A stretch of DNA of 64,000 nt from Ruminococcus bromii (lineage in GTDB: Bacteria > Bacillota > Clostridia > Oscillospirales > Acutalibacteraceae), in the NCBI RefSeq assembly GCF_002834235.1, contig NZ_NNBY01000025.1:1-64000 (forward strand), read 5' to 3'. Each line of letters opens with the position of its first letter. The stretch's first letter is position 1. The notes under the pieces are model-generated. The model made no database searches. It saw only the letters and a list, made by a program, of their open reading frames with translations, and was not told where the DNA came from. Both the position numbers and the translations under genes were made by a program. Below, in pieces: positions 810 to 49,364 of this stretch.

Positions 810-831
810 GAAAATGTTGGGGTGTTTATCA

Positions 832-869
832 GTCGGCAACTTTTTTGAGTGCCGACATTTTTCTTTTTT
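832..869 (+). terminator. Intrinsic terminator after the 781-809 promoter
   Basis: A perfect 7-bp stem GTCGGCA/TGCCGAC (832-838, 850-856) is followed by a T-rich tract. No gene lies between it and the promoter at 781-809. It may insulate the acetyltransferase pseudogene or end a very short RNA. Confidence 0.65.
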
Positions 870-893
870 ATATACTTCAAAATGCCTAAAATA

Positions 894-922
894 TTGATTA
901 TAACTAAACTTTAGTGTATTAT
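894..922 (+). promoter_or_regulatory. Probable promoter of the GNAT pseudogene
   Basis: TTGATT (894-899) and TATTAT (917-922) are spaced by 17 bp. The start codon of the acetyltransferase pseudogene is about 28 bases downstream of the expected transcription start. Confidence 0.45.
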
Positions 923-956
923 TATGATGTCATAAAGTATTAAAGAGGTCATAATT

Positions 957-1529
957 GTGAATGATAAATTGCATATCAGAACGGCACAAATAAGCGATGC
1001 CGAAGAATTGCTCGCCATATACAAACCATATATTGAAAACACGGCAATCACATTTGAATACGATGCTCCAAGCATTGAATAATTTGCAAATCGCATAAAA
1101 ACTACGCTTAAAAGGTACCCTTATATTGTAGCCGAACTCAACGGAAAAATTGTCGGCTATGCGTATGCCGGAGTTTTCAAAGGCAGAAAAGCGTATGATT
1201 GGTCAGTTGAAACAAGTATTTATATCCACCTTGATAATCACGGAAACGGAATCGGCAGAAAACTCTACGAAAAGCTCGAAGAAATTCTCACAAAGCAGGG
1301 TGTGACAAATGTAAATGCCTGTATTGCGTACACTGAACATGAGGATAAACATCTGCATAACGACAGTGTTTGCTTTCACAAAAAACTCGGTTATAAAACT
1401 GTCGGTATTTTTCATAAATGTGCCTACAAATTTGATAAGTGGTACGATATGATATGGATGGAAAAATTTATTGCCGAACACAGTGCTAATCCAAATGATA
1501 TTATCCCCTACCCTATGCTGAATTGTTAA
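957..1529 (+). pseudogene. GNAT N-acetyltransferase (phosphinothricin acetyltransferase-like), broken by a stop codon
   Basis: A frame read from GTG 957 (SD AAAGAGG) gives a 190-residue GNAT protein of the phosphinothricin/YncA-like type. It is interrupted at codon 42 by TAA (1080-1082). The acetyl-CoA loop is seen as HGNGIGRKLYEKLEE and the C-terminal half as FHKKLGYKTVGIFHKCAYKF. Before the stop the protein reads EYDAPSIE and after it FANRIKTTL. The family normally has an acidic residue here, so a GAA-to-TAA or GAG-to-TAG type change would explain it. The rest of the frame is intact, which suggests a recent lesion or a sequencing error. An internal in-frame start at 1302 would give only the last 75 residues, without the N-terminal strands. 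Confidence 0.75.
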
Positions 1530-1549
1530 CATAGCCATAAGATATAAGT

Positions 1550-1584
1550 ATCCCCGAAAAGTTCGATAAAAACTTTTCGGGGAT
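1550..1584. terminator. Strong hairpin between convergent genes
   Basis: A perfect 14-bp stem, ATCCCCGAAAAGTT paired across a 7-nt loop, lies between the GNAT pseudogene and the LicD gene. The T tract after it is weak on both strands, but its position between convergent genes fits a shared terminator. Confidence 0.6.
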
Positions 1585-1676
1585 TGAATTTGTCAATAAA
1601 AATGGGTACTGTCATAATATTGCTTACAATTACTATAAGCTGAAATTTTTAATAATATACCACTTAATAATGCAAT

Positions 1677-3566
1677 TTAGAATTTGTTTTCAAGCTTTGC
1701 AAAACTGTCTTTGCAGACATATCCTGCATATTCTCCGAGATCAATTTGCTTGATATCGTGACTTACATGTCTTTCGCTTACAGGAATCATTTCCATATAG
1801 TCCCCGTAAAGATACTTCAGGTACTTATCATATTCTTTAGGAATAGGCAGTTTTGCATTTTCAAAATCAACCCATATCGCCTCATCAAGCCATTCGGCAG
1901 GAAAAGCTCCTCTTGAAACATTTCTTCCCATACTGTCAAACAGATATTTCGGATTTTTCATATTCTTATGAAGTGAAATAAGTTTGTTTTGAACCTTTTG
2001 CAAAAATCCAAGCGGAAAAATCTTTCTCAGAATATTCGCACACAAAGAAGAAAATCTGCTGTTTGCATTCACCGAAGTGCCTCTCCACTTATCAAGCACC
2101 AGCCATCTTGAGCTTGCAGTTGCTTTCATATGAATTTTTCGTAAGAAAGCATTGTTTGAAGTATAATCCTGTGCAAGCACATCAAGAAAAATTCCGTTAT
2201 GAATATTGGGAAATCTTGATGTAAACTCAGTAGAAAGCAGAGTATCGTTTATTCGCAGTTTTGTAAAAGGAAAATGGCTGTCTTTTTCATTTTTTTGAGT
2301 CTGTGCAAAAAGATAATTCGGGAGTTCACTCGGCAATACCGAAAGAAACCTGTCGTAATCTTTTCTAAGCATCATAACATCTGCATCATCATCCCACGGA
2401 ATAAAGCCTTTATGTCTTACTGCACCCAAAAGACTTCCTCCGCCCAGGAAATACTTTATGTTATGCTTTTTGCAAATTCTGTCAACCACAAGTAAAAAGC
2501 CCAGAAGTATCTGTTGAATATCATTAAGCTTGCCGTCATATGAATCGGAAAACATAAATATACTGTCATCATCCATTACCTCGTGTCCCGAAATAAGGAG
2601 TGCGTCCTTGTAGTTGACCATCGATAACCAACCAAGCTTTTTAAGTCTTGTGCAGTCAATGGCGCAGCCGTCCGTAGAATCACCTGCAGAAGTTATGTTA
2701 ACCTCACACTCATCAAAAGCATCCGAAAGCGTAAGTGAAAATTCCGCCGAATTTACGGTTGAACTATCTGAGCAAGCGTTATACACCTGATTGTTATCCC
2801 CGTTGCAAAGAACAAACAGAACAGCAGAAATCAAGTCATTAATACTTATATAAGACACTTTGGGCGATTTGTTCTTAACATTCAAAGATTTTCCGTGAAC
2901 AGCCGATTCCAGCATATTCCTTACAAAATCGGAACTTGAATTTGCAGATATAATCTTGCCGCTTCTAACTGCTTTGATTGAAAAATCATACATATGAGAT
3001 GCAGAAAAATAAAGATTCTCAACAGACTGAATCAGCATTGCTTTTAATGAATCCGAATTAAAAGCGGAATGTGTTTTTTCTTTTTCGGAAATAACAAAAT
3101 CTTTTCCGAGTGTTCCGTAAATTGAGGCGTCTGACACAAGAACAGTTTCTTTTATCTTTAACGCATTGACAGCCGAGATAATATTATTTGCCCTGTTGAT
3201 ATGATTTTTAAATACATCAACATCTTCAACTCTATCAGAAAGCAAAAATCCCGTTTCAATAAGTATATCTCCGCATTTATTAACCGAATTAAGTGAAGAA
3301 TACTTTACGATGGAAAAATCTGATGAATCGATATAATCGAATCTCCTGTCATAGCTTTCGCTATCCTCTACAAGCAAAAATACAGCTATGCCTGCTTGTT
3401 TTTTTAAGTTAACCATGCGAAGCAATGATACAAGAGAAAAGGCGAGTTCTCCGCCTCCTGCTATAAAAACAGATTTTCCGAATAATTTACGGATGTTCAA
3501 ATTCTTATAACGCAAAGCTACAAGTGCTCTGTCCTGTTCAAATTGGTTAAGTAACAACTCAGACAT
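1677..3566 (-). CDS. LicD-family transferase fused to a degenerate SDR/epimerase domain
   Basis: 629 residues. The C-terminal half (from about 345) is a LicD domain with the signature LGGGSLLGAVRHKG at about 374-387 followed by WDDDADVM. LicD proteins transfer phosphocholine or related phospho-groups onto teichoic acid or surface glycans. The N-terminal ~325 residues resemble an extended SDR (NAD-dependent epimerase). The nucleotide loop reads GGGELA (37-42) rather than GxxGxxG. At the YxxxK site the Tyr is Ser171, with Lys175 kept. It ends in TRLKKLGWLSMVNYKDAL, closely like the end of the neighbouring epimerase (SRLCSLGWKPLVDLKEGI), so the N-terminal half is probably a decayed duplicate of that gene. 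It is the last gene of a three-gene operon. LicD assignment is solid; the acceptor is unknown. Confidence 0.8.
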   Translation of the reverse strand: MSELLLNQFEQDRALVALRYKNLNIRKLFGKSVFIAGGGELAFSLVSLLRMVNLKKQAGIAVFLLVEDSESYDRRFDYIDSSDFSIVKYSSLNSVNKCGDILIETGFLLSDRVEDVDVFKNHINRANNIISAVNALKIKETVLVSDASIYGTLGKDFVISEKEKTHSAFNSDSLKAMLIQSVENLYFSASHMYDFSIKAVRSGKIISANSSSDFVRNMLESAVHGKSLNVKNKSPKVSYISINDLISAVLFVLCNGDNNQVYNACSDSSTVNSAEFSLTLSDAFDECEVNITSAGDSTDGCAIDCTRLKKLGWLSMVNYKDALLISGHEVMDDDSIFMFSDSYDGKLNDIQQILLGFLLVVDRICKKHNIKYFLGGGSLLGAVRHKGFIPWDDDADVMMLRKDYDRFLSVLPSELPNYLFAQTQKNEKDSHFPFTKLRINDTLLSTEFTSRFPNIHNGIFLDVLAQDYTSNNAFLRKIHMKATASSRWLVLDKWRGTSVNANSRFSSLCANILRKIFPLGFLQKVQNKLISLHKNMKNPKYLFDSMGRNVSRGAFPAEWLDEAIWVDFENAKLPIPKEYDKYLKYLYGDYMEMIPVSERHVSHDIKQIDLGEYAGYVCKDSFAKLENKF

Positions 3567-3589
3567 AACTGTATTCCTAATTTCTGTTA

Positions 3590-4669
3590 TTAATTTTCTT
3601 CAAGAATTCCGACTGCTCTTCTTATTCCTTCTTTAAGGTCAACAAGAGGCTTCCATCCAAGACTGCAGAGTCTTGAACTGTCAAGAATTTCGGGGGTTTT
3701 TGCAAGAGCGGAAGTATCAACCTCAGGCTCCTTTTCATCTTCGGGATTGGCAAAAGCCAAAATCATATTTCTCTCAGGGAAAACCTCACAAGCTGTCTTT
3801 GCAAAATTTCTTATTGTTGTATCTGATTTTTCATAAGAAATGTTATACGGTGTAACATTTTCACCGTTAAGCATAATGTATATGAGAGCGGAAACCGTGT
3901 CTGTAACATAGCAGAATGAACGGTTAGCCGCACCGTTGCTTTTGAGAAGAATATTTTCGTGACGAACAACATTTGCAATAAACTGCGCCCAGACACGATC
4001 ATCCGTAAGACTGCTGGCGCCGTAAATATAGCTCGGTCTTGCAATCTTTACATTGAGTCCAAACTGTTTACAATAGCTTGCGGCAAGAGTTTCAGACGCT
4101 CTCTTTCCTACTGCATAACAATTTTTATAGGAAGTAAAATCAATATAACCGATATCATCTTCGGAAATACTGTTTTTACCATTGTGCAAAGCACCGTAAA
4201 CTTTAAGGCTTGAAACAACAAGTACAGACTCACTTTTGCTTTCAAGAGCAAAATCAAGAATGTTTGATGTACCGCTGAGATTTGCGTTAATAGTGCCTAC
4301 AGGATCGGTTTCAAATTGAATATTACTTGCCTGACTTGCGGCATGAATAATAAAATCCGCTCTCTCACATTCAATCTTATTTGTAACATCGGCAACAACA
4401 AGCTCAATGTCATCTCTTTCAAGAAGAACGCCAAACTTTTTCTCGGCTCTCTCTCTGTTTCTTACAAACGCAAGGAGCTTGATGTTATTGTTATAAAAGT
4501 CATTTCTTGCGAGAAATGTGAGAACAAGATAATAACCGATAAATCCTCCTGCACCGGTTATAAGAACGGTTTTACCGTTAAATCTGTTCCAATCAACATT
4601 TGTATTTGTAATTTCTTTAATATCGGAAAAAACCGTCTTTTTTATATTACTTTGAACATTATAATCCAT
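3590..4669 (-). CDS. NAD-dependent epimerase/dehydratase (extended SDR)
   Basis: The start is placed at ATG 4669, which overlaps the upstream cytidylyltransferase stop by 11 bp and has an AAAGGAAG Shine-Dalgarno. An ATG 39 bases further upstream would overlap by about 50 bp. The protein has 359 residues. It has an intact Rossmann motif TGAGGFIG near residue 38-45 and a catalytic Tyr-Lys pair in YAVGK (about 185-189), preceded by VVSSLKVYG. It probably makes or reduces a sugar or polyol attached to CDP. Position between a TarI/IspD-like enzyme and a LicD protein points to surface-polymer precursor synthesis; the substrate cannot be read from sequence. Confidence 0.8.
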   Translation of the reverse strand: MDYNVQSNIKKTVFSDIKEITNTNVDWNRFNGKTVLITGAGGFIGYYLVLTFLARNDFYNNNIKLLAFVRNRERAEKKFGVLLERDDIELVVADVTNKIECERADFIIHAASQASNIQFETDPVGTINANLSGTSNILDFALESKSESVLVVSSLKVYGALHNGKNSISEDDIGYIDFTSYKNCYAVGKRASETLAASYCKQFGLNVKIARPSYIYGASSLTDDRVWAQFIANVVRHENILLKSNGAANRSFCYVTDTVSALIYIMLNGENVTPYNISYEKSDTTIRNFAKTACEVFPERNMILAFANPEDEKEPEVDTSALAKTPEILDSSRLCSLGWKPLVDLKEGIRRAVGILEEN

Positions 4670-5399
4670 ATTTAAGTTCTTCCTTTGCAAACTGCTTGTA
4701 GTTTTCATAATAGAACTGTGATCGCAATGTTGTGAGATCCTCAGGTGTTGTTACCTTAATGTTGAATCTCTCGCCAAGGAAAAGATGAACCTTTTCGCCT
4801 AGCTCAATAAAAAGTTCACTTGAGGAAACAGGGTTTGTAATACCTCTCTTGTAAGCTTCTTCGTGAGCCCAAAGAATTCTTTCCATTGTATATCCCTGCG
4901 GAGCCTGTGTAATGTACATGGTACTTCTCTGGTAACTCTTGCCGCAGGTTTCTCCGTCCTCACTGTAAAGAAGTGAATCAATACTCGGAGTAACAGGAAC
5001 GGCTGTTTTGTACTTTTTTGTATCCTTAATACAGTTAGTGATGAGTTCTTCGCTGAGCATAGGACGAACACCGTCACAGATAAGGATGATATCCTCAGGA
5101 TCTTTTGAAAATTCGGCAGTAGCCATTACGCCGTTGTGAATAGAATCAAAACCGTTAGCACCGCCCGGAACAACAGCCTTTACCTTTGGAACATTGAATG
5201 CCTCAATAAGCTCATTAAGGTAGCCGATCCAGTCAGCCTTACAGGCAACAACAATCGCATCAACCTTAGGATGACGGGCAAAATGCTCCATTGTGTGAAT
5301 AATAATCGGCTTTCCGCCAACCTCAAGAAACTGTTTAGGCATATCGGAATACTTCATTCTTGCACCGATACCGCCTGCAAATAACATAGCTGTAACCAT
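4659..5399 (-). CDS. IspD/TarI-family cytidylyltransferase
   Basis: 246 residues with the family N-terminus FAGGIGARM, then MPKQFLEVGGKPIIIHT, and later CDGVRPML and FNIKVTTPEDL. These resemble TarI (ribitol-5-phosphate cytidylyltransferase) at least as much as IspD. Members make CDP-activated alcohols from CTP. The motif that usually carries an Arg (GGxxRxxS) reads GGANGFDS here, so substrate use may differ. It is the first gene of the operon that continues with an SDR enzyme and a LicD transferase, which favours a CDP-polyol for a teichoic-acid-like polymer over the isoprenoid pathway. ispE and ispH lie elsewhere in the window, away from it. Confidence 0.75.
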   Translation of the reverse strand: MVTAMLFAGGIGARMKYSDMPKQFLEVGGKPIIIHTMEHFARHPKVDAIVVACKADWIGYLNELIEAFNVPKVKAVVPGGANGFDSIHNGVMATAEFSKDPEDIILICDGVRPMLSEELITNCIKDTKKYKTAVPVTPSIDSLLYSEDGETCGKSYQRSTMYITQAPQGYTMERILWAHEEAYKRGITNPVSSSELFIELGEKVHLFLGERFNIKVTTPEDLTTLRSQFYYENYKQFAKEELKYGL

Positions 5400-5521
5400 A
5401 GTAAGACAATCCTTTCAAAACACAAATCAGACTTCACTTTACAAAATGCAGTCAAATTTATTTTTTTAACAGCAGAATTACGCAGTAAAAAACGCATCTG
5501 CACTTTGATATAACTATTAAT

Positions 5522-5551
5522 ATGATACCACATTAATGCATTTTTTGTCAA
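5522..5551 (-). promoter_or_regulatory. Promoter of the cytidylyltransferase-SDR-LicD operon
   Basis: On the minus strand, TTGACA (5546-5551) and TATCAT (5522-5527) are 18 bp apart. The expected transcript has a leader of about 115 nt before ATG 5399. Confidence 0.6.
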
Positions 5552-5705
5552 CAAAAATACTTTGTACGAATGTTTTAATCGACTTTGCCGGTTTACGGTG
5601 AATTTCTTATACCGTATTTTCAAAATGCTTTTTATTTAGGCACATCATTTTGACGCACAATTTAATATTTTTCATACCTTATTTCATACCTTATAAAATT
5701 AATGC

Positions 5706-5750
5706 GGGAATGAGTAAAATTCTTTTATTCTTTATTCCCATTTTTCTTTT
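5706..5750 (+). terminator. Hairpin plus T tract upstream of pyrB, possible attenuator
   Basis: GGGAATGAGTAAAA can pair with TTTTATTCTTTATTCCC, and the stem is followed by ATTTTTCTTTT. It lies about 65 bases before the pyrB start. pyr genes in Firmicutes are often attenuated, but no PyrR-type anti-antiterminator is recognisable, so this is only a possibility. Confidence 0.35.
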
Positions 5751-5813
5751 AAGTATATATAAATACAGAAAATTTTGATAAAATAGAAAAAATTGCAGAA
5801 AGCTGTGTTATTT

Positions 5814-6881
5814 ATGTTTGACAAAAATTTGATTGATTTATCGGTTATGTCTACCGAGCAGATTGACAAAATTATCAGAAAAGCTAAAAAGATTATGCAG
5901 AGTCCCGCCGACTATCGACACGCCTGTGACGGCAAAATTCTTGCTACATTATTTTATGAACCGAGTACAAGAACACAGATGTCATTCCAGACGGCCATGC
6001 TTAAACTCGGCGGAAGAACAATCGGTTTTGACAACCCGATGAATTCATCCGTTTCAAAGGGCGAAAGCCTCAAAGATACAATTACAATTGTCGGCGAATA
6101 TGCCGATATTATCGCAATGCGTCATCCTGTTGAGGGTACTGCCGCTGCGGCATCTCTCTATGCAGGTGTTCCCGTTATCAACTGCGGTGACGGCGGTCAC
6201 CTTCATCCAACTCAGACGCTTGCCGACATTATCACTCTCAGCTGTGAAAAAGGCAGACTTGATAACCTCAGAGTAGGTGTATGCGGTGACCTTCTCAACG
6301 GCAGAACAGTTCATTCGCTTATCAAGACACTTGCAAAATATCCGAACAACAGCTTTGTACTTATCTCAACAAAGGAACTCAGCGTTCCGCTTTATGTTAT
6401 TGACATTCTTGAAAAGAACGGTTGCAAGTATGAAATTTCTCATAGCCTTGCAGATGCAATCACAGACCTTGATGTTCTGTATATGACAAGAATTCAGCGT
6501 GAGAGATTTGCAAGCGAAGAAGATTATCAGGCACAGAAAAATGTTTTTGTTCTCGACAAAGAAAAACTTGACAAGGCAAAAGAAGATATGATAATTCTTC
6601 ACCCATTGCCGAGAGTAAACGAAATTACAGTTGATATTGATGATGACCCGAGAGCGTTGTATTTCAAACAGGCTCAGTACGGTATGTACGGCAGAATGGC
6701 ACTTATTCTTCTGCTTTTGCAGGATGATGAGTTCTTTGTTGAAAACAGACCGTTTGTTGTATCGGATCATCACTGCAACAATCCGAAATGTATCACACAG
6801 CAGGAGCCATATCTTCCGAACCTCAGCTATGAAAAGCTTGGTATGGTAATGTGCGGTTACTGCGACAAGAGAATAGACTGA
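5814..6881 (+). CDS. pyrB: Aspartate carbamoyltransferase with C-terminal PyrI-type zinc domain
   Basis: Catalyses carbamoyl phosphate plus aspartate to N-carbamoyl aspartate, the committed step of pyrimidine synthesis. The start is placed at ATG 5814 (355 residues); an in-frame TTG seven codons upstream is less likely. The carbamoyl-phosphate motif FYEPSTRTQMSF (about 47-58), the MRHPVEG segment and ILHPLPRVNEI are intact. The last ~35 residues carry CNNPKCIT...CGYCDKRI, with Cys at about 321, 326, 347 and 350. This matches the zinc-binding domain of the regulatory chain PyrI. The nucleotide-binding part of PyrI is absent and no pyrI lies next to it. The gene is followed by a DUF308 gene after 10 bases. 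Confidence 0.9.
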   Translation: MFDKNLIDLSVMSTEQIDKIIRKAKKIMQSPADYRHACDGKILATLFYEPSTRTQMSFQTAMLKLGGRTIGFDNPMNSSVSKGESLKDTITIVGEYADIIAMRHPVEGTAAAASLYAGVPVINCGDGGHLHPTQTLADIITLSCEKGRLDNLRVGVCGDLLNGRTVHSLIKTLAKYPNNSFVLISTKELSVPLYVIDILEKNGCKYEISHSLADAITDLDVLYMTRIQRERFASEEDYQAQKNVFVLDKEKLDKAKEDMIILHPLPRVNEITVDIDDDPRALYFKQAQYGMYGRMALILLLLQDDEFFVENRPFVVSDHHCNNPKCITQQEPYLPNLSYEKLGMVMCGYCDKRID

Positions 6882-6891
6882 GGTGTATTAA

Positions 6892-7482
6892 ATGAGTGAA
6901 CATAAGAAAAAGAAAAATCCGGCGGCTACTATGATGATGACCTCTCTCGCCTATATCGTACTCGGCATTGTGACGGTTGTCTTTCCGCAAAAGGTGCTTG
7001 ATGTTTTGTGCTATGCACTCGGCGGTGCAATGACTGTTTACGGACTGTTCAACATAATTTCTTTCTTTGTTGACAGAGAAGGCGGAATGTACTTTGAACT
7101 TGTAATAGGCGTTATTTCAACCGGATTCGGTATATTTGCTTTGTTTTCACCCACTTCAATTGCGGCAATAATCAATATTCCGATTGGCATTATCATTATT
7201 GTTGACAGCATTATGGATATGAAACATTCGCTCACGCTGAGATCGCTCGGTATGAGAAAATGGTGGATTCCGTTTATTATAGCAATTGTAATGATTATTT
7301 TCAGTCTTACAACAATTTTCTTTACAAACATTTTTGGTGCATTGCTTATGATTGCACTCGGAATTGCGCTTATTTATGAAGGTGTTTCGGGATTTTCACT
7401 TATTATTCTGCTCAGCCGTTATCACAAAGAATACGACCGCAATCAAAGAATGATTGATGCAGAAGCAACCGATATAAACTGA
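6892..7482 (+). CDS. DUF308 / HdeD-like membrane protein
   Basis: 196 residues, with a short Lys-rich start (MSEHKKKK) followed by about six hydrophobic segments that alternate with short loops. This is the pattern of the HdeD/DUF308 family, whose biochemical role in Firmicutes is unknown. A GAGGTG ribosome binding site precedes ATG 6892. The gene starts 10 bases after pyrB and is probably co-transcribed, though nothing suggests a metabolic link. The C-terminus is hydrophilic and presumably cytoplasmic. Confidence 0.75.
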   Translation: MSEHKKKKNPAATMMMTSLAYIVLGIVTVVFPQKVLDVLCYALGGAMTVYGLFNIISFFVDREGGMYFELVIGVISTGFGIFALFSPTSIAAIINIPIGIIIIVDSIMDMKHSLTLRSLGMRKWWIPFIIAIVMIIFSLTTIFFTNIFGALLMIALGIALIYEGVSGFSLIILLSRYHKEYDRNQRMIDAEATDIN

Positions 7483-7492
7483 ATATGATTAA

Positions 7493-7526
7493 ACCGTCCG
7501 CAGATTTTACGGACGGTTTTCTTTTT
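7493..7526 (+). terminator. Terminator after the DUF308 gene
   Basis: The stem ACCGTCCG/CGGACGGT (7493-7500, 7510-7517) is followed by TTTCTTTTT on the plus strand. It abuts the 3' end of the convergent addA gene and may act on both strands. Confidence 0.85.
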
Positions 7527-10500
7527 ATACGGTAATGTATGCGCCAAGGTGGATACTGCAAAGAATGCATTCTTTGACGGTAAGTTCTTCGGACTGCTCC
7601 ATTGCCGATTTGTACAAATCAAGTTGCTTCTTGTAAAGTCCTGCAAGTTTTGTTATATCTTTTACCCTGTCGGTTTTGTAATCGACAATAACAAGCTTTC
7701 CGTCCTCAACAAACGCAAGATCAACCGCACCCTGAATTATTACTGTTGCATCGGTTTTTACATCTTTATATTCATCGAATACTTCCGACGGTTTAAGCCT
7801 TGCGGTAAATCGTTTTTCACGCATTACAAGCTGTGATGCAATTATACGGTCAATTAGTTTGGTTGACAGAAATTCATTAAGTGTTTTTCTGTCAATCATA
7901 TCAACTTGTTCCTGTGTAAGTTTTCCGTCATTTAAAAGACGGTCAATTTCAGTATCAAGACTTGCTCTTGCCTGTTCAAAATTGCAGTATTGCAAAAACT
8001 TGTGGTGAGCAGTACCTCTTGCAACAGGAGCGGAATTTTGTTCAGCAATAAATAACGGCTTTGAAAGAATCTTTTCAAAATAATCACCGTTCTGACTGTG
8101 TGCAATATCGGACGCACTGACCTTTTGGGGGAGTGAAAGAATATCCCTGTTTCTGTATTTGAAATCAAGATTCTTTTTCAAAAGTTTTGCATAATCAAAA
8201 GTATCATCGGATACATCGGCAACCTGTAACAGATTTGTTGAAGTAATATCGTCCTCAAAGACATTATCCTTATCAATCATTTTTTCATCAACGATAATCT
8301 GCAATTTCCAATCTGATTCTCCGTTGTGCGGAATTACCTTTGAACCCGGCATAATATCGTTACGCAGATTATTGAGTGACGGGTGAACTAATGCACAAAG
8401 ACAGAGCCAGTCGCAATAGCTTTGACAGCTTGTGACAGTATAGGGTTCAATTACACTTTCGGACACAAGCTTTGAATACAGCCTTTCAAGATAATCACTG
8501 CACTTCTTTACTGCACCAACACAGATAAGCTTTTCCTTTGCTCTTGTGAGTGCAACATAAAGCACACGCATTTCCTCGGCAATAAGGTTTTCTTCAATTT
8601 TAAGCCCTGTTGCAAGGCGTGGGAATGTGTTGTAAACAACACCATTGCTCTGAGTCTTGATGCCGAGTCCTGCCTTGCTGTCGAGAAGAATATCGTTTCT
8701 AAGGTCGGTTTTATTGAATTGGTGGGTTATGTCGGCAATAAAGCAAACCGGAAATTCAAGTCCCTTTGACGCATGGATACTGAGAACTCTCACGGCATTT
8801 GCAGAGTCGCCCTCATTTTGTGATGATGCGTCAAGGTTTGTCTTATTGGCAATAAGCTTGTCGGTATATGAAATAAAATCAGAAAGCGTTTTATAGCCGT
8901 TGCTCTCAAAACTTCTTGCATATTCACGCAACAGCTCCAGGTTTTTAAGTGCCGAATCATTACCGCTGACTGCAAGCGAAATAGACATAAATCCTGTCAT
9001 TTCACACGCTTTTGAAATGAGAGCGTCAACGGAATTTGTACAGGCACAATCACGCAGAATTTTAAGTTCAAAAACAAATTTCCTTGCCTTATCGTTTGTT
9101 TTTGCATATTCACAGACAGAAGAGTAAAGCGAAGATTTTCTGCTTTCACAACGCATTTCGGCAAGCTCGTCGGGAGTGAACGCATACATAGGACTGCACA
9201 AAACCGACAAAAGCGGAATATCAATCCCCGGGTTGTCAATTACGCGCAGAAGGTTGAGCATAATTTTGATTTCAACTGCATCAAAAAAACTTGACTTATT
9301 CTCGCTGTAGGCAGGAATACCGCTGTTGTTCAGAGTGTTGACATAAGTTGCGGCCTTTCCGCTTGGACTGCGAAGAATTATTGCAAAGTCACCGTAACGG
9401 GCTTCACGCATTACATCTCCGTCCTTAACTCTAAAGCCCGAATTAATCATATCGTGAATTTTATCAGCTATGTACTTTGCCTCAATTTCTTCTTTTTCAA
9501 GGTCTGAGTTTTCGGATTCAATCAATGAAATTTCAAAATTGCAATCATCAGACTTTGGAAACTCAGCACCGTTTACCAGCCTTTCATCGGAATTATATTC
9601 CATTTTTGCGGATTCCTTGGTCATTATTCTTTCAAAAATAAAATTGACCGCATCACACACCTCAAAACGACTGCGGAAATTTCTGTCAAGAATTATAGTT
9701 GCAGGATATTCGGGATTTTCTTCATTGAATCGTTTATATTCGTTTTTGCGTTCAATAAAAATTTCGGGCTTTGCCTGACGAAATCCGTAGATACTCTGCT
9801 TTACATCGCCAACCACAAAAAGATTGCTTTCATCATTGCTTACCGACTTGAAGATAAGGTCTTGAACATCATTTACATCTTGAAATTCGTCAACCATAAC
9901 AGCATCAAATCTGTTTGAAATCTCCTGAGCCTGGACGGTTTTGGTATAGCCGTTATCATCATCGGGCTTTGCAAGAAGTTTTACAGTAAGCGATTCAATA
10001 TCGGCAAACGATAGAATATTTTTCTTCGCTTTGAGTTTGGAAAGCTTTTTGTCATATGCACGAACAAGTGTAAACAAGGTAGATATGAACCTATGAAGCT
10101 GTGACAATTCAAGCCTTGCATCTTCCTCACTCCAAAAAAACAATGATTGGAGTTTCTTCACCGTTTCTTTGACCTCATCTCTGTTGGATGAAACAGAAAT
10201 TTTAATCGGATTATCCTTGTATCCTTTCGGACTTTTCATTCTTCCTGTTTCAAAAGAAAATATTGCCTGTCTGATTTCATCCCATGATGAAGAAACAAAT
10301 TTCGATTGAACAAGGGTAAAATATGCTAAATCACCGACAAGCAGGGGTTCGACTGCATCTTGAAGTTTTTCGTCATCTTTTAATCGAAGAATAGAATTTT
10401 CAGTCAGATTGATTCCGTGAAGCACGGCACTCAGAGCATAGTCGATTATAATTTTGCCCCATACAGTTTTTTCAATATCGGTTTCAGAATAGTTTTCGAG

Positions 10501-27385: not shown

Positions 27386-28606
27386 TCAATTTCCAAAATT
27401 ATTAATTCCGATACCGTCAAAACCCATTTCATCCAAAAGGGACTTGTACAAATTTACATCTTCATCCGTGTATAACATACGGTTTTTGATGCCCGATTTA
27501 AAATTGATATTTCTGTCTACAAAAAGCCTTTTTCCCCACATATGACACCATGAAATCGGTAAAAGGAACGGTGTTTTTTTTACATATGGATACTTATACT
27601 GCATTTCGGATTTTGGCGGAAATATTGAGGACACAAGATATGAGAATTTTGATTTGTTATTCTCGGTAATTGTCTTGTGAGAATTTATCATCGTGCCGAC
27701 ATCTACCCTGCCGAGTGTACCGCTGAGCAGAATATATTCTTCGATATCATCAAATTTAAGTTCAGCCTGTGGCTTTGCAAACCAGTTGAACGCAATCTCA
27801 CGAACACGCTTTTCATACTTTGCAATACCGATTTTTTCAAGCATCACATTAAGATAGTCATAATCAAGCTCAGATTGATGATTTTTCAAGAAAACATAGC
27901 TGTCAAGCACCATTCTTGCTCCCATTCCGCCGATTCTGAAATGATTCGAGTTATGAACAAGCATATAGATATAAAAGTCCTCATGGCTCATTTCATATGA
28001 ATAGCTGTAGCCGTCACGCTTTGTTGAACGGTCAAGCTGATTAACAAGCAACGGATAAGATTCCTCGTTTTCATGGACAAGAGTTGCATGCATTTCAATG
28101 TTCATCATCGGCTTTTTTTCAAAATGATACTGGTTGTCATCTTCATTCAGAAAAGTGTATCCGAGTTCGGAAAATACTTTTTTGACCGAATCAGCCTGTT
28201 TTCTATCAAAAAGGATATCTACATCGGACACGGAACGAAAGTCGGAGCGAGGATATTCCTTTTTCATAAAATAGCCCTTTAAGGGAATATTCTTGATTTT
28301 GTTTTCATCAAAAGCCTTGAGAATTTTCTCGGTTTCATATGAGAGATTCCCGTCAATCAGCATTTCAACCGACAAATTCTGCTTAAATTTTTCATATACC
28401 TCGGGCGAAACATACTTTTTGTCAAGCGACAAAACCGCATTGGCAACAAGCGATTCAACACTGCAATAGTTTGCAAGCATTTTTATCGACTGCCATTTTA
28501 TCCCCTCATAAGGAATCGGAGGTGCTGTTCCGTTTACAGACGATGAAACAAGCTCAAGCAGATACTTAAATTCAATTTTTTCGTTATCATTAAGATGTTT
28601 CCTCAT
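27386..28606 (-). CDS. Uncharacterised nucleotidyltransferase-fold protein (PF14907-like)
   Basis: The start is placed at ATG 28606, overlapping the upstream peptidase-like gene by 17 bp and giving 406 residues. An earlier ATG would increase the overlap to about 80 bp. The motif PLKGYFMKKEYPRSDFRSVSDVD (about 108-130) is that of the NTP_transf_5 family, with the acidic pair Asp128 and Asp130 expected to bind metal. A His-rich segment LVHNSNHFRIGGMGARMVLD lies further on. Relatives occur in RiPP clusters, including lasso-peptide clusters, and in polysaccharide clusters; the reaction is unknown. It is the last gene of a cassette with a PqqD-like protein and an S26-like peptidase. Confidence 0.75.
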   Translation of the reverse strand: MRKHLNDNEKIEFKYLLELVSSSVNGTAPPIPYEGIKWQSIKMLANYCSVESLVANAVLSLDKKYVSPEVYEKFKQNLSVEMLIDGNLSYETEKILKAFDENKIKNIPLKGYFMKKEYPRSDFRSVSDVDILFDRKQADSVKKVFSELGYTFLNEDDNQYHFEKKPMMNIEMHATLVHENEESYPLLVNQLDRSTKRDGYSYSYEMSHEDFYIYMLVHNSNHFRIGGMGARMVLDSYVFLKNHQSELDYDYLNVMLEKIGIAKYEKRVREIAFNWFAKPQAELKFDDIEEYILLSGTLGRVDVGTMINSHKTITENNKSKFSYLVSSIFPPKSEMQYKYPYVKKTPFLLPISWCHMWGKRLFVDRNINFKSGIKNRMLYTDEDVNLYKSLLDEMGFDGIGINNFGN

Positions 28607-29090
28607 TTTTCCCTTTTTTCGTTTTAAGCTTTGAAAATGCATTTTTACTTCTTGACACAGTTGATGCAATAACCTTTCTTAGCGGTTTTGAATAGAACAT
28701 AAATTCAAGGTATGCTCTGTACTTCATTGAGTCAACCGTGTAGGGCTTGCCCTTTCTGTAAAATGCTGTTACCACTCCGATTACATCATCATCGGTAATA
28801 CCTTTTTCAACGGCAAACTGATTGTCACCGCACATAGTATAACTGCCGTCACTTCCGAAATTGACGACACGGTGCAATACATACGAGCCGTCTTTTCGTC
28901 TGTATAAAGGCAAGTCAAAAAGATGAAGTCTGCCCTTCGGTTTTGATAAAACAACCGTATCGTCACCGTCTCGTAGCATTGGGAGCATACTTGTTCCCTT
29001 CGGATTGAAAGTAACCGATCCTCCGGCCTCAAGCTTTTCGGCTATAATCTGCATTACATCATCAAGACCTACTTCTTTATTCAAGAACAT
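28590..29090 (-). CDS. S24/S26-like (signal peptidase-fold) protein without membrane anchor
   Basis: 166 residues. GTSMLPMLRDGD (about 32-43) carries the candidate nucleophile Ser34. YVLHRVV (about 70-76) has His73 in the place used by the Ser-His type of signal peptidase, and MCGDNQ follows near 86-91. Unlike true signal peptidases it has no N-terminal membrane segment, so it should be cytoplasmic or only peripherally bound. The C-terminus is strongly basic. It overlaps both neighbours (PqqD-like upstream, nucleotidyltransferase downstream), implying one functional unit. A processing role on a modified peptide is inference. Confidence 0.72.
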   Translation of the reverse strand: MFLNKEVGLDDVMQIIAEKLEAGGSVTFNPKGTSMLPMLRDGDDTVVLSKPKGRLHLFDLPLYRRKDGSYVLHRVVNFGSDGSYTMCGDNQFAVEKGITDDDVIGVVTAFYRKGKPYTVDSMKYRAYLEFMFYSKPLRKVIASTVSRSKNAFSKLKTKKGKNEETS

Positions 29091-29340
29091 CAGCCTCTCT
29101 TAGCTTTTGAATAAATGTATCAATATCGGCACTCGCCTTTTCTTCGCTCACTTCATACTCATCAAGCATTGCTTTGAGCAAATCAGCCTTTTCGCAATCG
29201 TTTTGGAGCTTTTCAAAAAGGAATGCACCCGTTTCATTGAGGTTGATAATTCCGTTAAAATCAAGCGTCAGCTTATTTACGGGAACTACAACATATGAAT
29301 CTGCAACCTTTCGCAGAACAAAATCTTCTTTTATCTTCAT
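29077..29340 (-). CDS. PqqD-like protein (RiPP recognition element fold)
   Basis: 87 residues of the PqqD type: KIKEDFVLRKVADSYVVVPV, then INLNETGAFLFEKLQND, and a helical C-terminus ending KLREADVLE. PqqD and related RRE domains bind leader peptides and hand them to modifying enzymes. No radical SAM enzyme, cyclase, transporter or precursor peptide is seen nearby, so its partner is unclear. It is the first gene of the cassette, starting behind AGGTGATTTT, and its start codon overlaps the stop of a 13-codon ORF. Confidence 0.8.
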   Translation of the reverse strand: MKIKEDFVLRKVADSYVVVPVNKLTLDFNGIINLNETGAFLFEKLQNDCEKADLLKAMLDEYEVSEEKASADIDTFIQKLREADVLE

Positions 29341-29378
29341 AAAATCACCTGTTTTCCGTGTGAACTTTTTTCGTTCAT
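29337..29378 (-). CDS. 13-codon upstream ORF overlapping the PqqD-like start
   Basis: Encodes MNEKSSHGKQVIL and ends in TGA overlapping the ATG of the PqqD-like gene (ATGA). Its own ATG falls almost exactly at the expected transcription start of the promoter at 29384-29412, so translation would be leaderless. It may be a coupling leader, a chance frame or, least likely, a minimal peptide substrate. Confidence 0.25.
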   Translation of the reverse strand: MNEKSSHGKQVIL

Positions 29379-29383
29379 ATTAA

Positions 29384-29412
29384 ATTATAATATACCTTTC
29401 GACAAAAAGCAA
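29384..29412 (-). promoter_or_regulatory. Promoter of the PqqD/S26/nucleotidyltransferase operon
   Basis: TTGCTT (29407-29412) and TATAAT (29384-29389) are 17 bp apart on the minus strand. It is separated from groEL by the terminator at 29439-29465, so the cassette is transcribed independently. Confidence 0.65.
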
Positions 29413-29438
29413 GAAAAAGGATTTGAACATAAAATTAC

Positions 29439-29465
29439 CGCAGACCTTTTGAGTCTGCGGTAAAA
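29439..29465. terminator. Terminator after groEL
   Basis: TACCGCAGAC pairs with GTCTGCGGTA around a short loop, with AT-rich flanks on both sides. It closes the groESL transcript. Confidence 0.85.
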
Positions 29466-31699: not shown

Positions 31700-33337
31700 T
31701 TATCTGTTTGATGATTGAGAACTTGTCTGTTTCTTGCCCTTGCTGACAACAAGAACTACCGTTGAACCGTATTCGAGAGTATCCCCCTCAACATGTTCTT
31801 TGTAGCGGATTACCCTTCCCTCAGCAACCTTGTCACTGTACTCATATTCTGCTGTTGCAAGAAGTCCCTGAGCGGCAATGTCGGATGCAACGGTATCAAG
31901 TTTTTCACCCTCAACCTTTGGCAGAGTCCTCATCTGTGATCCCTTGCTTACGCAAACACTCACTACTACAGAATCTTCCTGAGTAATTTTTGAACCTGCG
32001 GCAGGAGTCTGTGACATAATCTTACCTTCTGCATAATCATCACTGTACTCATCGTTAAAGGTTCTGTAGATTGTGATACTGCTGTTGCTGTCAACACTCT
32101 TAACAGCCTCTTCATATGTCATTCCGACATAGTTAGGAACAGTAGCACCTGTCCACTCTGTGCTTTGAGTTGAGCTTACACTCGCATCAGTATTATTCGA
32201 AAACATTCCGGCAAGCGGATTCTGCATAAGCCAGAACACACCGGCAATACCGAGAACAAGAACCGTGATAGCAGCCGCAATAATAATAATTGAAGCGTGT
32301 GACATACCATTTGAAGTCTTGCGTGTACGCTCTGACTTTGTAAGGTTCATGCTTGCTGTTCTTGAAATTTCGTCCTGAATTGCCTTTGCTGTATGAGCAA
32401 CTGAAAGCTGTGAACGAAGCTCGTCAAAATCTGTAATACGGTTTTCACGCTCAACCTGCAAACCGTTAGCAAGAGCCGAAACAACATGCGGAGGAAGTCT
32501 CTTTACGGTTGTTGTACTCATAAGAAGTCGGCTGTCCTTACGGCGTTCTACCGCACTCTTTGGCATATGACCTGTGAGGGCATAGAAAAGGGTTGCACAG
32601 AATCCGTAGATATCCGTAATATCGTCAAGAGGAAAATTATCGTCATACTGTTCGGGAGCCGCAGCGCCTGAAAAAAGCTGAGATTTGAGAGGCGTGCCTC
32701 TTTTACGCTCATTTTCCGACGCAAAGCCTGAAATCTTAATTTTACCCGATGCTGTGATATACATATTCTTAGGTGCGATAGCATAGTGACCGACACCTCT
32801 CTTGTGAAGAGCCTCAAGCGCAGAAATTACAGGCATAAAAAGCGGACGGGCAATATCCCATTCAAGATGACCGTTACTGCGTTCAACATACTCCTCAAAA
32901 GGAATAAGATCCTCGTTTTCCTCAACAACATAAACTGTGTTATTTTCTTCAAAAATGTTGTGAACATTCATAAGAGCGGAAAGCTCACGGAGTTCTGAAA
33001 GAATCCTGTAATAGTTAAGAAAATCGTCCTTGAGTTTATTATATACAAGGCGGTTTTCATAATTTATTCTGACCTCGGCAGTTCCTTCTTCACGAGAAAA
33101 AAGTCCGATAGGAAGAAATTCGCAGATGATTACAATGTCACCTGTCTGCTTGTCGTGGCTTATATAGCGTGTGCTTTCGCCGTTGGTATCAATTCCCGCA
33201 CCTACGATATAGCGGTTCTGAAGAATTGTTCCGTACGGTAAAAAAGGAGCTTGCTGTTTTTCAGTTGTATCAAATCCGCAGGACGGACAAATCTTGTTGT
33301 CACCTATTTCCTGCATGCATCCCATACACAATGACAT
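31700..33337 (-). CDS. PASTA-domain pseudokinase with N-terminal zinc ribbon
   Basis: The start is placed at ATG 33337 (545 residues), because the sequence MSLCMGC opens a zinc ribbon (Cys4, 7, 17, 20). Next comes a Hanks-type kinase fold (about 35-315) in which all the catalytic motifs are lost. The VAIK lysine is Cys72 (IICEFLP), HRDIKPxN reads HYAIAPKN (184-191) and DFG reads GFA (204-206). APEQYDD and the lobe after it are kept. One membrane segment lies at about 348-371, followed by two extracellular PASTA repeats (about 398-535). PASTA repeats bind peptidoglycan fragments, so it may be a non-catalytic receptor or a partner of the complete PrkC encoded 2 kb away. It has its own promoter. 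Confidence 0.82.
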   Translation of the reverse strand: MSLCMGCMQEIGDNKICPSCGFDTTEKQQAPFLPYGTILQNRYIVGAGIDTNGESTRYISHDKQTGDIVIICEFLPIGLFSREEGTAEVRINYENRLVYNKLKDDFLNYYRILSELRELSALMNVHNIFEENNTVYVVEENEDLIPFEEYVERSNGHLEWDIARPLFMPVISALEALHKRGVGHYAIAPKNMYITASGKIKISGFASENERKRGTPLKSQLFSGAAAPEQYDDNFPLDDITDIYGFCATLFYALTGHMPKSAVERRKDSRLLMSTTTVKRLPPHVVSALANGLQVERENRITDFDELRSQLSVAHTAKAIQDEISRTASMNLTKSERTRKTSNGMSHASIIIIAAAITVLVLGIAGVFWLMQNPLAGMFSNNTDASVSSTQSTEWTGATVPNYVGMTYEEAVKSVDSNSSITIYRTFNDEYSDDYAEGKIMSQTPAAGSKITQEDSVVVSVCVSKGSQMRTLPKVEGEKLDTVASDIAAQGLLATAEYEYSDKVAEGRVIRYKEHVEGDTLEYGSTVVLVVSKGKKQTSSQSSNR

Positions 33338-33388
33338 ATTATTACTCAACTCCAAATAAGTATCAATTTCAAATTTTGTCTGAAAAGA

Positions 33389-33418
33389 ATTATACCATAA
33401 AAACATATTTCTTTTCAA
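33389..33418 (-). promoter_or_regulatory. Promoter of the pseudokinase gene
   Basis: TTGAAA (33413-33418) and TATAAT (33389-33394) are 18 bp apart on the minus strand, just after the tRNA-Ala gene. Confidence 0.65.
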
Positions 33419-48035: not shown

Positions 48036-49364
48036 TCAATTTTTTTGTCTTGAAATTAAGACAAGGTCACGATTATCTGCTTCGCCGTCAAGGTTAAAAT
48101 CGGCGGCTTTGAGATATGCACCGTCTAATTCTGCATTATCACAGAGGTATTTTTGCAAAAGCGTGACATCCTTTGAATTTACATTGCCCTCGCCCGTCAC
48201 ATCTCCGCAAACTGCAATAACATAAGTTTTTGAATCTATAACGGCAGTAAAGCCTGTTTTTAGCTTTCCGCTCTTTGCAATCGTACCGTCCGCCTTATAT
48301 ACATTTTCGGCAGAAGTTTTGTTTTTAAAATCGGCAACGGTTTCTCCGCTGTAAATCCCGTAAACTATCCCGTCAGAAAACAGGTATTCGGAATTATTCG
48401 GTTGAATATCTGATTTAGAAGAATTGTGATCGTCATTACTGCCGTCATTGCCATTTGTTTTCTTTTCTTCAAAATCACCCGAGCCAAATACCTGAACCGT
48501 TCCGTTATCAAGCAAAACAGCACATTGATTTTTGTAAGATACAACAGCAGTTGCTCTGTCGGGAATTGACACGCTTTTTGTTTTTTCGGATGTTTTCAGA
48601 TTAAGTCGATAATTCACGGCAGAATGTATTTTTCCGTCAGATACCGAAACATTTTCGGCTGTGGCATTTGAAACATAATTCCTTGAATTATCTGACAGCG
48701 AAACAATAAAACCGTCTTCATTTATAACTCTGTTTATTCCTGCGTTATAAATATTTTTAAGTTCACCTGTATCGGCAACATAGGTTGATGACGATTGCGA
48801 GAGCTTGCAAATTGAACCGTCACAAAGTCTTGCGTATGACTTTCCGTTATTATTAAAAACCTCGTTTACATTGTCTGAAAAAGTTATTTTCGACTTTTTA
48901 TCAGATGAAAAATCCCTGCACGCAACATAAGATTTCAGGCTGTCGGTCTTAATATAGTAAATGCGATTATCGGTTACCGAAAAGGAATTGGTCATAAAAT
49001 TTTCGTCAACAAAAGTGTTCTGTGAAACATTTCCGTTATCAAGATTAAGAGAATACACTGAATATTTGTTAGTGAAAGCATCGTCAAAAACAAGTGCATA
49101 AGTGTAGTTTCCGCTCTGTGACACACTCCTTATCCGACCGCCGACAGAAAAACTGTATGCAGAAAAATCGGGCACAAGCCTTGCTGAAAACACTGTATTT
49201 CCCGAAAATGCGCACACAAATCCGCCCTTACCGTTGCTGTCACTTTTTACAGACGAACAAGCGGCAAGGTCAGTCAGATTGTATTCATCATACGCACGGC
49301 TTCTGCACACACCGATAAGTGTGATAAGCATAACAGCCACAGCAAGGGAAATCAGTCGTTTCAT
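48036..49364 (-). CDS. Secreted protein with C-terminal dockerin type I domain
   Basis: 442 residues. The signal peptide covers about 1-24 (KRLISLAVAVMLITLIGV). The bulk consists of repeated short beta segments with many Ser, Asn and Tyr residues, including AVLLDNGTVQVFG and GKSYARLCDGSICKL. It suggests a beta-propeller, though no family is certain. The C-terminus is a dockerin: GDVTGEGNVNSKDVTLLQKYL and ADFNLDGEADNRDLVLISRQ, two calcium loops of the Asp/Asn type. The first is less canonical (Thr and Glu at two ligand positions). Dockerins bind cohesins on scaffoldins, so the protein should join a cell-surface complex. No catalytic site is seen. Confidence 0.8.
   Translation of the reverse strand: MKRLISLAVAVMLITLIGVCRSRAYDEYNLTDLAACSSVKSDSNGKGGFVCAFSGNTVFSARLVPDFSAYSFSVGGRIRSVSQSGNYTYALVFDDAFTNKYSVYSLNLDNGNVSQNTFVDENFMTNSFSVTDNRIYYIKTDSLKSYVACRDFSSDKKSKITFSDNVNEVFNNNGKSYARLCDGSICKLSQSSSTYVADTGELKNIYNAGINRVINEDGFIVSLSDNSRNYVSNATAENVSVSDGKIHSAVNYRLNLKTSEKTKSVSIPDRATAVVSYKNQCAVLLDNGTVQVFGSGDFEEKKTNGNDGSNDDHNSSKSDIQPNNSEYLFSDGIVYGIYSGETVADFKNKTSAENVYKADGTIAKSGKLKTGFTAVIDSKTYVIAVCGDVTGEGNVNSKDVTLLQKYLCDNAELDGAYLKAADFNLDGEADNRDLVLISRQKN

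Follow-up and report, generated by a model that had tools for sequence, protein, structure and literature searches.

The window analysed here, a 64,000-nucleotide stretch of Ruminococcus bromii DNA (contig NZ_NNBY01000025.1, positions 1 to 64,000; contig C25 of the genome designated G000), carries a trio of minus-strand genes located between groEL and degV. The first gene (29077–29340) encodes a PqqD-like protein of 87 amino acids (aa), the second (28590–29090) an S26-like protein of 166 aa, and the third (27386–28606) a nucleotidyltransferase (NTase) of 406 aa. The neighbouring open reading frames (ORFs) overlap by 14 bp (PqqD-like/S26-like) and 17 bp (S26-like/NTase), and all three were recovered as described in a previous annotation based on the letters of the DNA (hereafter, the sequence-only reading), which had proposed three genes overlapping end to end; they are presumably co-transcribed. 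The same annotation had assigned the trio its own terminator and its own promoter. The former is borne out by a terminator-like hairpin 3' of the NTase gene on the minus strand (27370–27347). The case for the promoter is weaker: the possible site TTGCTT-17-TATAAT (29384–29412, minus strand), read by eye and absent from the promoter-scan list, has a perfect TATAAT at 29389–29384, but its -35 sequence TTGCTT fits the consensus at only 3 of 6 positions, and promoter-like sites occur in the region at chance level (10 found vs 10.0 expected). Another terminator-like hairpin, closing groEL, lies upstream of the trio on the same strand (29435–29463). The NTase is 96% identical to its counterpart in R. 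bromii ATCC 27255 (best tblastn segment), and a search for close relatives of the locus retrieved 5 loci.

The PqqD-like protein matches Pfam PF05402 (E = 6.9e-16) and is the only PqqD-family match in the genome. Its AlphaFold2 model (mean predicted local distance difference test score, pLDDT, of 84) exhibits a b-b-b-a-a-a topology, and the top Foldseek matches of this model are the recognition elements of lasso peptide pathways, namely leader-bound TbiB1 (5v1u/5v1v, TM score 0.77) and TfuB1 (6jx3, TM score 0.70). Both the family match and the lasso-type fold agree with the leader-peptide binder that had been proposed for this gene. A function as the PqqD of pyrroloquinoline quinone biosynthesis was discarded, the score with TIGR03859 (17.4 bits vs a cut-off of 46) being far too low.

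The S26-like protein, likewise the only match of its type (S) in the genome, shows no Pfam match above the cut-off and a weak NCBIfam match to the archaeal-type signal peptidase I family TIGR02228 (9.3e-5; 22.3 bits vs a cut-off of 51.85). In profile searches against the PDB, it matched 4nv4, a signal peptidase I (E = 0.0018), and showed weak matches to SEC11 (0.16–0.21). Residues G32, S34, M35, P37, H73, R74, G88 and D89 (GD89N motif) are invariant among 11 homologues, and an N-terminal membrane helix was not seen by eye, in keeping with the previously proposed Ser34/His73 signal-peptidase-like protein devoid of a membrane anchor. The NTase, in turn, matches PF14907 (3.9e-40) and conserves in 11 homologues not only the Asp128/Asp130 pair noted earlier but also E171. 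On contig C47 of the same genome (locus L034:1195–5454; L numbers denote fetched loci), a second NTP_transf_5 protein is encoded near a gene judged by eye to be thymidylate-kinase-like.

This set of proteins resembles the components of the Linear Polyphosphorylated Peptides (LPPs), a family of ribosomally synthesized and post-translationally modified peptides (RiPPs) described for the lpp cluster of Paenibacillus alginolyticus (Nat Commun, 20 May 2026; PMC13381572). According to the main text of that article, the conserved LPP set comprises a signal peptidase I-like (SpI) peptidase, a RiPP recognition element (RRE), an HprK-like kinase, a nucleoside triphosphate (NTP) transferase and an MsbA-like transporter. 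LppA is the precursor; LppK, the HprK-like kinase, adds several phosphates to Ser3 of the core; LppB is a discrete RRE, and LppS is an SpI-like peptidase whose in vitro cleavage occurs only with LppB; LppD is the exporter, and LppN is the NTP transferase, whose deletion caused no detectable change in the product. The window encodes a discrete RRE (PF05402, lasso-RRE fold), a soluble SpI-like Ser-His leader peptidase and an NTP_transf-type protein, and the genome also encodes an HprK-like kinase outside the locus, on contigs C31 and C34. The residues N35, D72 and F76 of the PqqD-like protein lie at a constant offset of +2 from N33, D70 and F74, which build the tyrosine pocket of LppB (PMC13381572), in a comparison of residue numbers rather than an alignment. 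Moreover, the spacing of 39 residues between S34 and H73 equals that of S29 and H68 in the published LppS, and the invariant D89 (11 rows) is a candidate counterpart of LppS D93. The LppB entry named in the article was not among the sequence matches or the listed fold matches of the PqqD-like protein. From the genes present and their order, together with the conservation of residues and motifs and the co-occurrence seen across genomes, we consider it likely, with a probability of about 0.8, that the trio constitutes the trans-acting half (LppB-LppS-LppN) of a split LPP-type RiPP system, the precursor and the kinase being encoded elsewhere. The sequence-only reading had regarded the cassette as an undescribed system, or alternatively as a PqqD-guided pathway unrelated to RiPPs; neither view is supported, as the parts correspond to LppB, LppS and LppN of a RiPP family already reported in PMC13381572. 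Its notion of one machine with a PqqD-guided peptidase gains support from this match of components, and from a candidate peptide and kinase in the same genome.

The top structural matches of the RRE raise the alternative that the trio tailors a lasso peptide, with the PqqD-like protein as B1, the NTase as an accessory enzyme, and the cyclase and the B2 peptidase encoded elsewhere. Paeninodin-like lasso pathways do share a B1-type RRE, an HprK kinase and an NTP transferase with the system studied here, and passages of PMC7533575 place HPr kinase, PqqD and NTase genes beside lasso clusters of rumen bacteria as well. Nevertheless, those pathways rely on a B2 cysteine peptidase and a cyclase, and their leaders carry a WxxP motif (PMC13381572, main text), whereas the leader found here is of the YxxP type and a whole-genome search aimed at B2 (Transglut_core3; the cyclase was not searched for) gave 0 matches at E≤0.001. 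Furthermore, the counterpart of the signal-peptidase-like protein is the leader peptidase of LPP systems and not B2, and no lasso core was evident by eye in the precursor, which makes a lasso pathway very unlikely. SynChlorMet/HprK_rel_A cassettes (TIGR04248/04249/04352) also combine a PqqD-like protein with an HprK-like kinase, but the scores obtained here were far below their cut-offs.

No precursor, kinase or exporter of this kind was found in the 64-kb window. The whole genome was searched with two profiles, A1 built from 17 kinases and A2 from 10 small precursor-like ORFs. A1 retrieved two kinase copies, on C31 and C34, and A2 a single precursor-like ORF (C31:88695), situated one kb ahead of the C31 kinase gene; this ORF scored 2.7e-6 with A2, of which it is not a member, and 3.0e-12 with profile A4, of which it is. 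In the fetched C31 locus (L142), a gene for a giant secreted protein of 1938 aa (814–6630), with a signal-peptide-like start, InlB B-repeats and an immunoglobulin-like match below the cut-off, is followed by the gene for the precursor-like peptide of 46 aa (6696–6836; MKKEYFSPEFELVKFQFEDVILVGSLTDVPEVGDSNGDKVDGFEEE), which has a YxxP leader and is preceded by the ribosome-binding site aaggag. A gene for a secreted protein with leucine-rich repeats (LRR) and a dockerin (6802–7701), the HprK-like kinase gene (7756–8469), two genes after the peptide, and a terminator-like hairpin (8470–8497) complete the locus. The order peptide, dockerin protein and kinase is the same in L144, L146, L147 and L148, from related species. 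A strong hairpin (about -26 kcal/mol; 6633–6690) separates the giant gene from that of the precursor; in L144 the corresponding gap holds a hairpin that differs in sequence and conserves the shape. Since the only PqqD-family match and the only S match of the genome are both in the window, no other candidate to serve this precursor was found. A peptide encoded elsewhere, as the sequence-only reading had envisaged, thus has a concrete candidate on another contig, together with a kinase and partner proteins, and the small ORF co-occurring with the enzymes that it had called for was found, as YxxP precursor-like ORFs, in this genome and in its relatives.

By analogy with the published LPP system, from which RRE binding, LppB-dependent cleavage by LppS and polyphosphorylation of serine are taken over, the parts encoded in the window would act on the C31 peptide. 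The LppB-like RRE would bind the YxxP leader of the 46-aa peptide, the C31 kinase would phosphorylate the conserved serine just past the leader, and the LppS-like peptidase would remove the leader while the RRE presents it. The LppN-like NTase may add a nucleotide or a sugar phosphate to the phosphoserine, and the peptide would leave the cell by some export route to work with surface proteins. On C34 (L143:7772–9381), the second HprK-like kinase gene directly precedes the only YjeF_N match of the genome. YjeF_N was considered as a partner of LppN, given that it neighbours kinase 2 and that six related loci have it in the vicinity of S; since the genome has no further YjeF_N match, an adjacent housekeeping gene is the simpler explanation, and the candidate was rejected.

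The precursor family was characterized with 44 distinct precursor-like ORFs (48 matches before collapsing identical sequences) from fetched loci, which were chosen around S homologues or around precursor or kinase matches and do not represent a random sample; gene calls on these loci are crude (longest ORFs), and small neighbours may be missed. The consensus leader (38 rows) reads M-K-x-x-Y-x-x-P-E-x-E-I-x-x-x-x-x-x-D-V-x-x-x-S. A serine is located 18 to 20 residues after the tyrosine in 38 of the 44 precursors, compared with 8, 3, 11 and 5 of 44 in neighbouring three-residue windows, and of the six exceptions one (L072) results from a wrongly called start. The YxxP leader and a serine about 18–20 residues after its tyrosine are shared with the LPP system, the distance in LppA being 18 (PMC13381572, main text). 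A fresh set was then assembled from 20 of the 22 best class-wide matches outside G000 and G053 (two were dropped for lying <1 kb from a contig start); it stems from nine genomes not used in A4, one of which, G072, contributes 7 of the 20. As scored, 19 of these 20 precursors have a serine at +19, and the twentieth (L205) joins them once its tyrosine serves as the anchor in place of the phenylalanine chosen by the script. Up to 18 precursor matches (G015, E≤1) and 19 (G123, E≤0.1), spread over many contigs, were counted per genome, with one to three S matches per genome. At L095:4225–6477 and L096:12440–14689, a radical SAM gene, confirmed by a Radical_SAM match in L096 only, neighbours a kinase, an RRE and a cysteine-containing precursor-like ORF, possibly a radical-SAM version of the system.

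Of 59 genomes, made up of this one and 58 relatives, 44 have S homologues, at 67 places in all; 60 of the 66 places outside the window were fetched, and neighbours were counted within 8 kb, as far as each stretch reached. Among these 60 loci, a PqqD-like gene accompanied S in 53, an HprK-like kinase in 27, an NTase in 25, a YxxP precursor-like ORF in 19 and an MsbA-like ATP-binding cassette exporter in 17. The figure of 53 of 60 places the association within the trio above chance and answers the call of the sequence-only reading for a check of gene co-occurrence. Complete clusters exist in related genomes (e.g. L057 and L081). Ten loci stand beside groEL as in the window: all have the PqqD-like gene and S, five have the NTase, which is hence optional, and none has a kinase or a precursor in the fetched stretch. 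Within the corresponding ten genomes, a kinase is present elsewhere in all 10 and a precursor match (E≤1) in 9, the one lacking it being G030 (84% complete). In the five groEL-linked genomes with a single S (G002, G027, G029, G030 and G032), the figures are 5 of 5 for the kinase and 4 of 5 for the precursor.

Co-occurrence was further assessed in 147 Clostridia genomes at least 90% complete, with strict cut-offs (S, 1e-20; kinase, 1e-60; precursor, 0.01) picked after viewing the tables. S was present in 50 genomes at E≤0.001 (39 of them at E≤1e-20), the kinase in 49 at E≤0.001 (24 of them of the short type at E≤1e-60) and the precursor in 27 at E≤0.1 (20 of them at E≤0.01). The genomes with strong S include 19 of the 20 precursor genomes (Fisher test, 3e-12; G061 is the exception) and those with the short kinase include all 20 (5e-21), shared ancestry being ignored in both tests; leaving out G000, G048 and G053, which had served for training, gives 17 of 18 for S and 18 of 18 for the kinase. 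None of the 19 genomes holding solely the longer kinase type has a precursor at E≤0.01. One of them, G048, contains a cysteine-type ORF that is a member of A2 and not of A4, and the longer-kinase-only genomes probably carry a different precursor family. The longer kinase (about 290–330 aa) accompanies S in G073, G080, G082, G110, G155, G196 and others.

The arrangement seen on C31 recurs in the family. An ORF of at least 240 aa ends between -10 and 70 bp upstream of the precursor in 29 of 44 cases (observed gaps, -4 to 65), and an upstream ORF of at least 500 aa was found for 25 of 44 precursors, compared with 23 of 371 for ordinary genes of 100 aa or more in the same loci (Fisher test, 1.6e-15). 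By eye, 18 of the 29 upstream proteins have a signal-peptide-like start, 10 start beyond the fetched stretch and 1 (L081) has none at its called start. In loci L152–L160, fetched for their precursors, pairing occurs in 9 of 14 cases, and in the fresh set in 18 of 20 (at least 240 aa) or 13 of 20 (at least 500 aa), with 15 of the 18 upstream proteins signal-peptide-like by eye. The scanned upstream proteins display varied domains, such as InlB B-repeats, beta-helix, BspA-type LRR, pectinesterase and a lectin-like domain below the cut-off, and 6 of 10 fresh ones scanned show no known domain. Read-through joining the giant protein and the peptide was rejected: because the gaps fall in all frames (e.g. 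12, 13, 14, 15 and 17 nt) and usually hold a ribosome-binding site (by eye), the peptide is a separate gene and not a read-through tail. At L156:6284–12505, three identical 48-aa precursor ORFs each follow a similar secreted protein (895, 842 and 1131 aa).

The secreted neighbours themselves could be the substrates of the trio, either dockerin proteins or short secreted proteins near related loci, some with C-terminal tails such as ELPFIPN or GYYxxIVKP. Secreted dockerin proteins, detected with a regular expression of our own, are among the listed neighbours of 17 of the 44 precursors, and several short secreted proteins have conserved tails. However, the signal-peptide-like starts of these candidates suggest an exit via Sec, by which they would miss a cytosolic RRE; no YxxP leader was seen in them by eye, and dockerins are common in the genome (27 places); the window encodes two dockerin proteins, at 48036–49364 and 56528–58732. 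This alternative is quite unlikely. The ending ELPF(I/V)P occurs in short proteins, secreted or of lipoprotein-like type, near L067, L085, L089, L097 and L098, and short dockerin-like proteins ending in GYYxx(I/V)(V/I)(K/R)P in L073, L077, L092 and L094; these tailed proteins are possibly a second kind of substrate or tag.

Several observations weigh against a split LPP-type system in which the trio serves the C31 peptide. The leader here reads ExExxxFxxxDVIxTS, in contrast to VLxHQxIxFETxxS in PMC13381572 (main text), and in the C31 peptide the position Tyr+19 is taken by Gly and the serine stands at +20. The published cluster has an MsbA-like exporter, of which no close counterpart was found here: the search for an LppD-like exporter gave no match on the window's contig, the nearest one on C31 is a free-standing ATPase encoded directly ahead of the giant gene (28% identity, over the ATPase part only), and the top match genome-wide shares 29% identity with the exporter that accompanies other members. 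The likeness to LppB and LppS was judged from residue numbers and spacing, the structure model of the S26-like protein is of low quality (pLDDT 38.6), its fold is indicated by weak profile similarity, and the kinase lacks any Pfam or PDB profile match. Its similarity is weak, to NCBIfam ScmC and HprK-related kinases only, and its HprK-like name derives from the weak NCBIfam matches of a homologue and from a P-loop read in alignment A1. Across the class, G061 has a precursor and a kinase with a weak S match (6.6e-6), and 4 of the 24 short-kinase genomes have no clear precursor; about a third of the collected precursors lack the pairing. Regarding the groEL-linked set, three of its ten stretches are short (L040, L045 and L047; 4.6–8.0 kb), and five of its genomes (G006, G013, G021, G024 and G034) have a second S locus, with a kinase and an RRE beside it in four (L064, L066, L074 and L094); in those five genomes, the precursors can therefore be accounted for without the groEL-linked set. 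The case for a split common to the relatives is weaker as a result, while the reading of the R. bromii genome is unaffected.

The missing exporter match, the lack of physical linkage between the trio and C31, the absence of the NTase from five groEL-linked loci and the second S loci could also indicate that the trio is a remnant or acts on an unrelated target, the C31 peptide being served otherwise. Against this, the catalytic residues of the trio are kept, its PqqD-family and S genes are the sole matches in the genome, and five related genomes show the same layout with a single S; we regard it as very unlikely. The split LPP-type reading also departs from the published family in that the genes are distributed over C25 and C31 (and C34) instead of one cluster, in that genomes hold up to 19 precursor matches vs one to three per published cluster, and in the location of the precursors behind large, mostly secreted proteins. 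The locus lacks three defining features of the LPP family (the exporter, the exact leader motif and the single cluster), although its mode of action is most likely that of an LPP system. Neither "Ruminococcus" nor "Clostridia" is mentioned in the main text of PMC13381572, and a Clostridial branch with its own leader motif is not described there, as far as that main text shows. Among the matches listed from the open-licence PMC literature, no account of this system was apparent, LPP RiPPs appearing only in PMC13381572.

Besides the trio, the window encodes close to groES/groEL a protein (31700–33418, minus strand) with a zinc-ribbon, a kinase-like domain and PASTA-like repeats, all named by eye, whose HRD/DFG motifs read HYA/SGF, giving it the look of a pseudokinase.

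To the already known LPP family, the present analysis adds a split layout, numerous precursors dispersed over the genomes and their pairing with secreted proteins. The biological role of LPPs is unknown according to PMC13381572 (main text), and a split machine with many dispersed precursors, mostly behind large secreted proteins, provides a testable idea of their function. As the C31 gene stands in line with those of a giant secreted protein and an LRR/dockerin protein, its mature peptide most likely works with surface proteins, and the pairing suggests, as a hypothesis, that mature peptides work with their paired secreted proteins outside the cell. It is conceivable, at somewhat less than even odds, that the LPP-type peptides of Clostridia are dedicated companions, with one gene behind each giant or repeat-rich exported protein, that a single central kinase-RRE-peptidase(-NTase) set, located anywhere in the genome, matures all of them, and that the peptide serves as a separately encoded tag, tether or partner. 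Searches requiring the precursor and the enzymes side by side may miss such split systems. If this idea is true, gut and rumen bacteria, among them relatives of the starch-degrading Ruminococcus bromii, would use LPP-type peptides as partners of giant proteins that are secreted or located at the cell surface.

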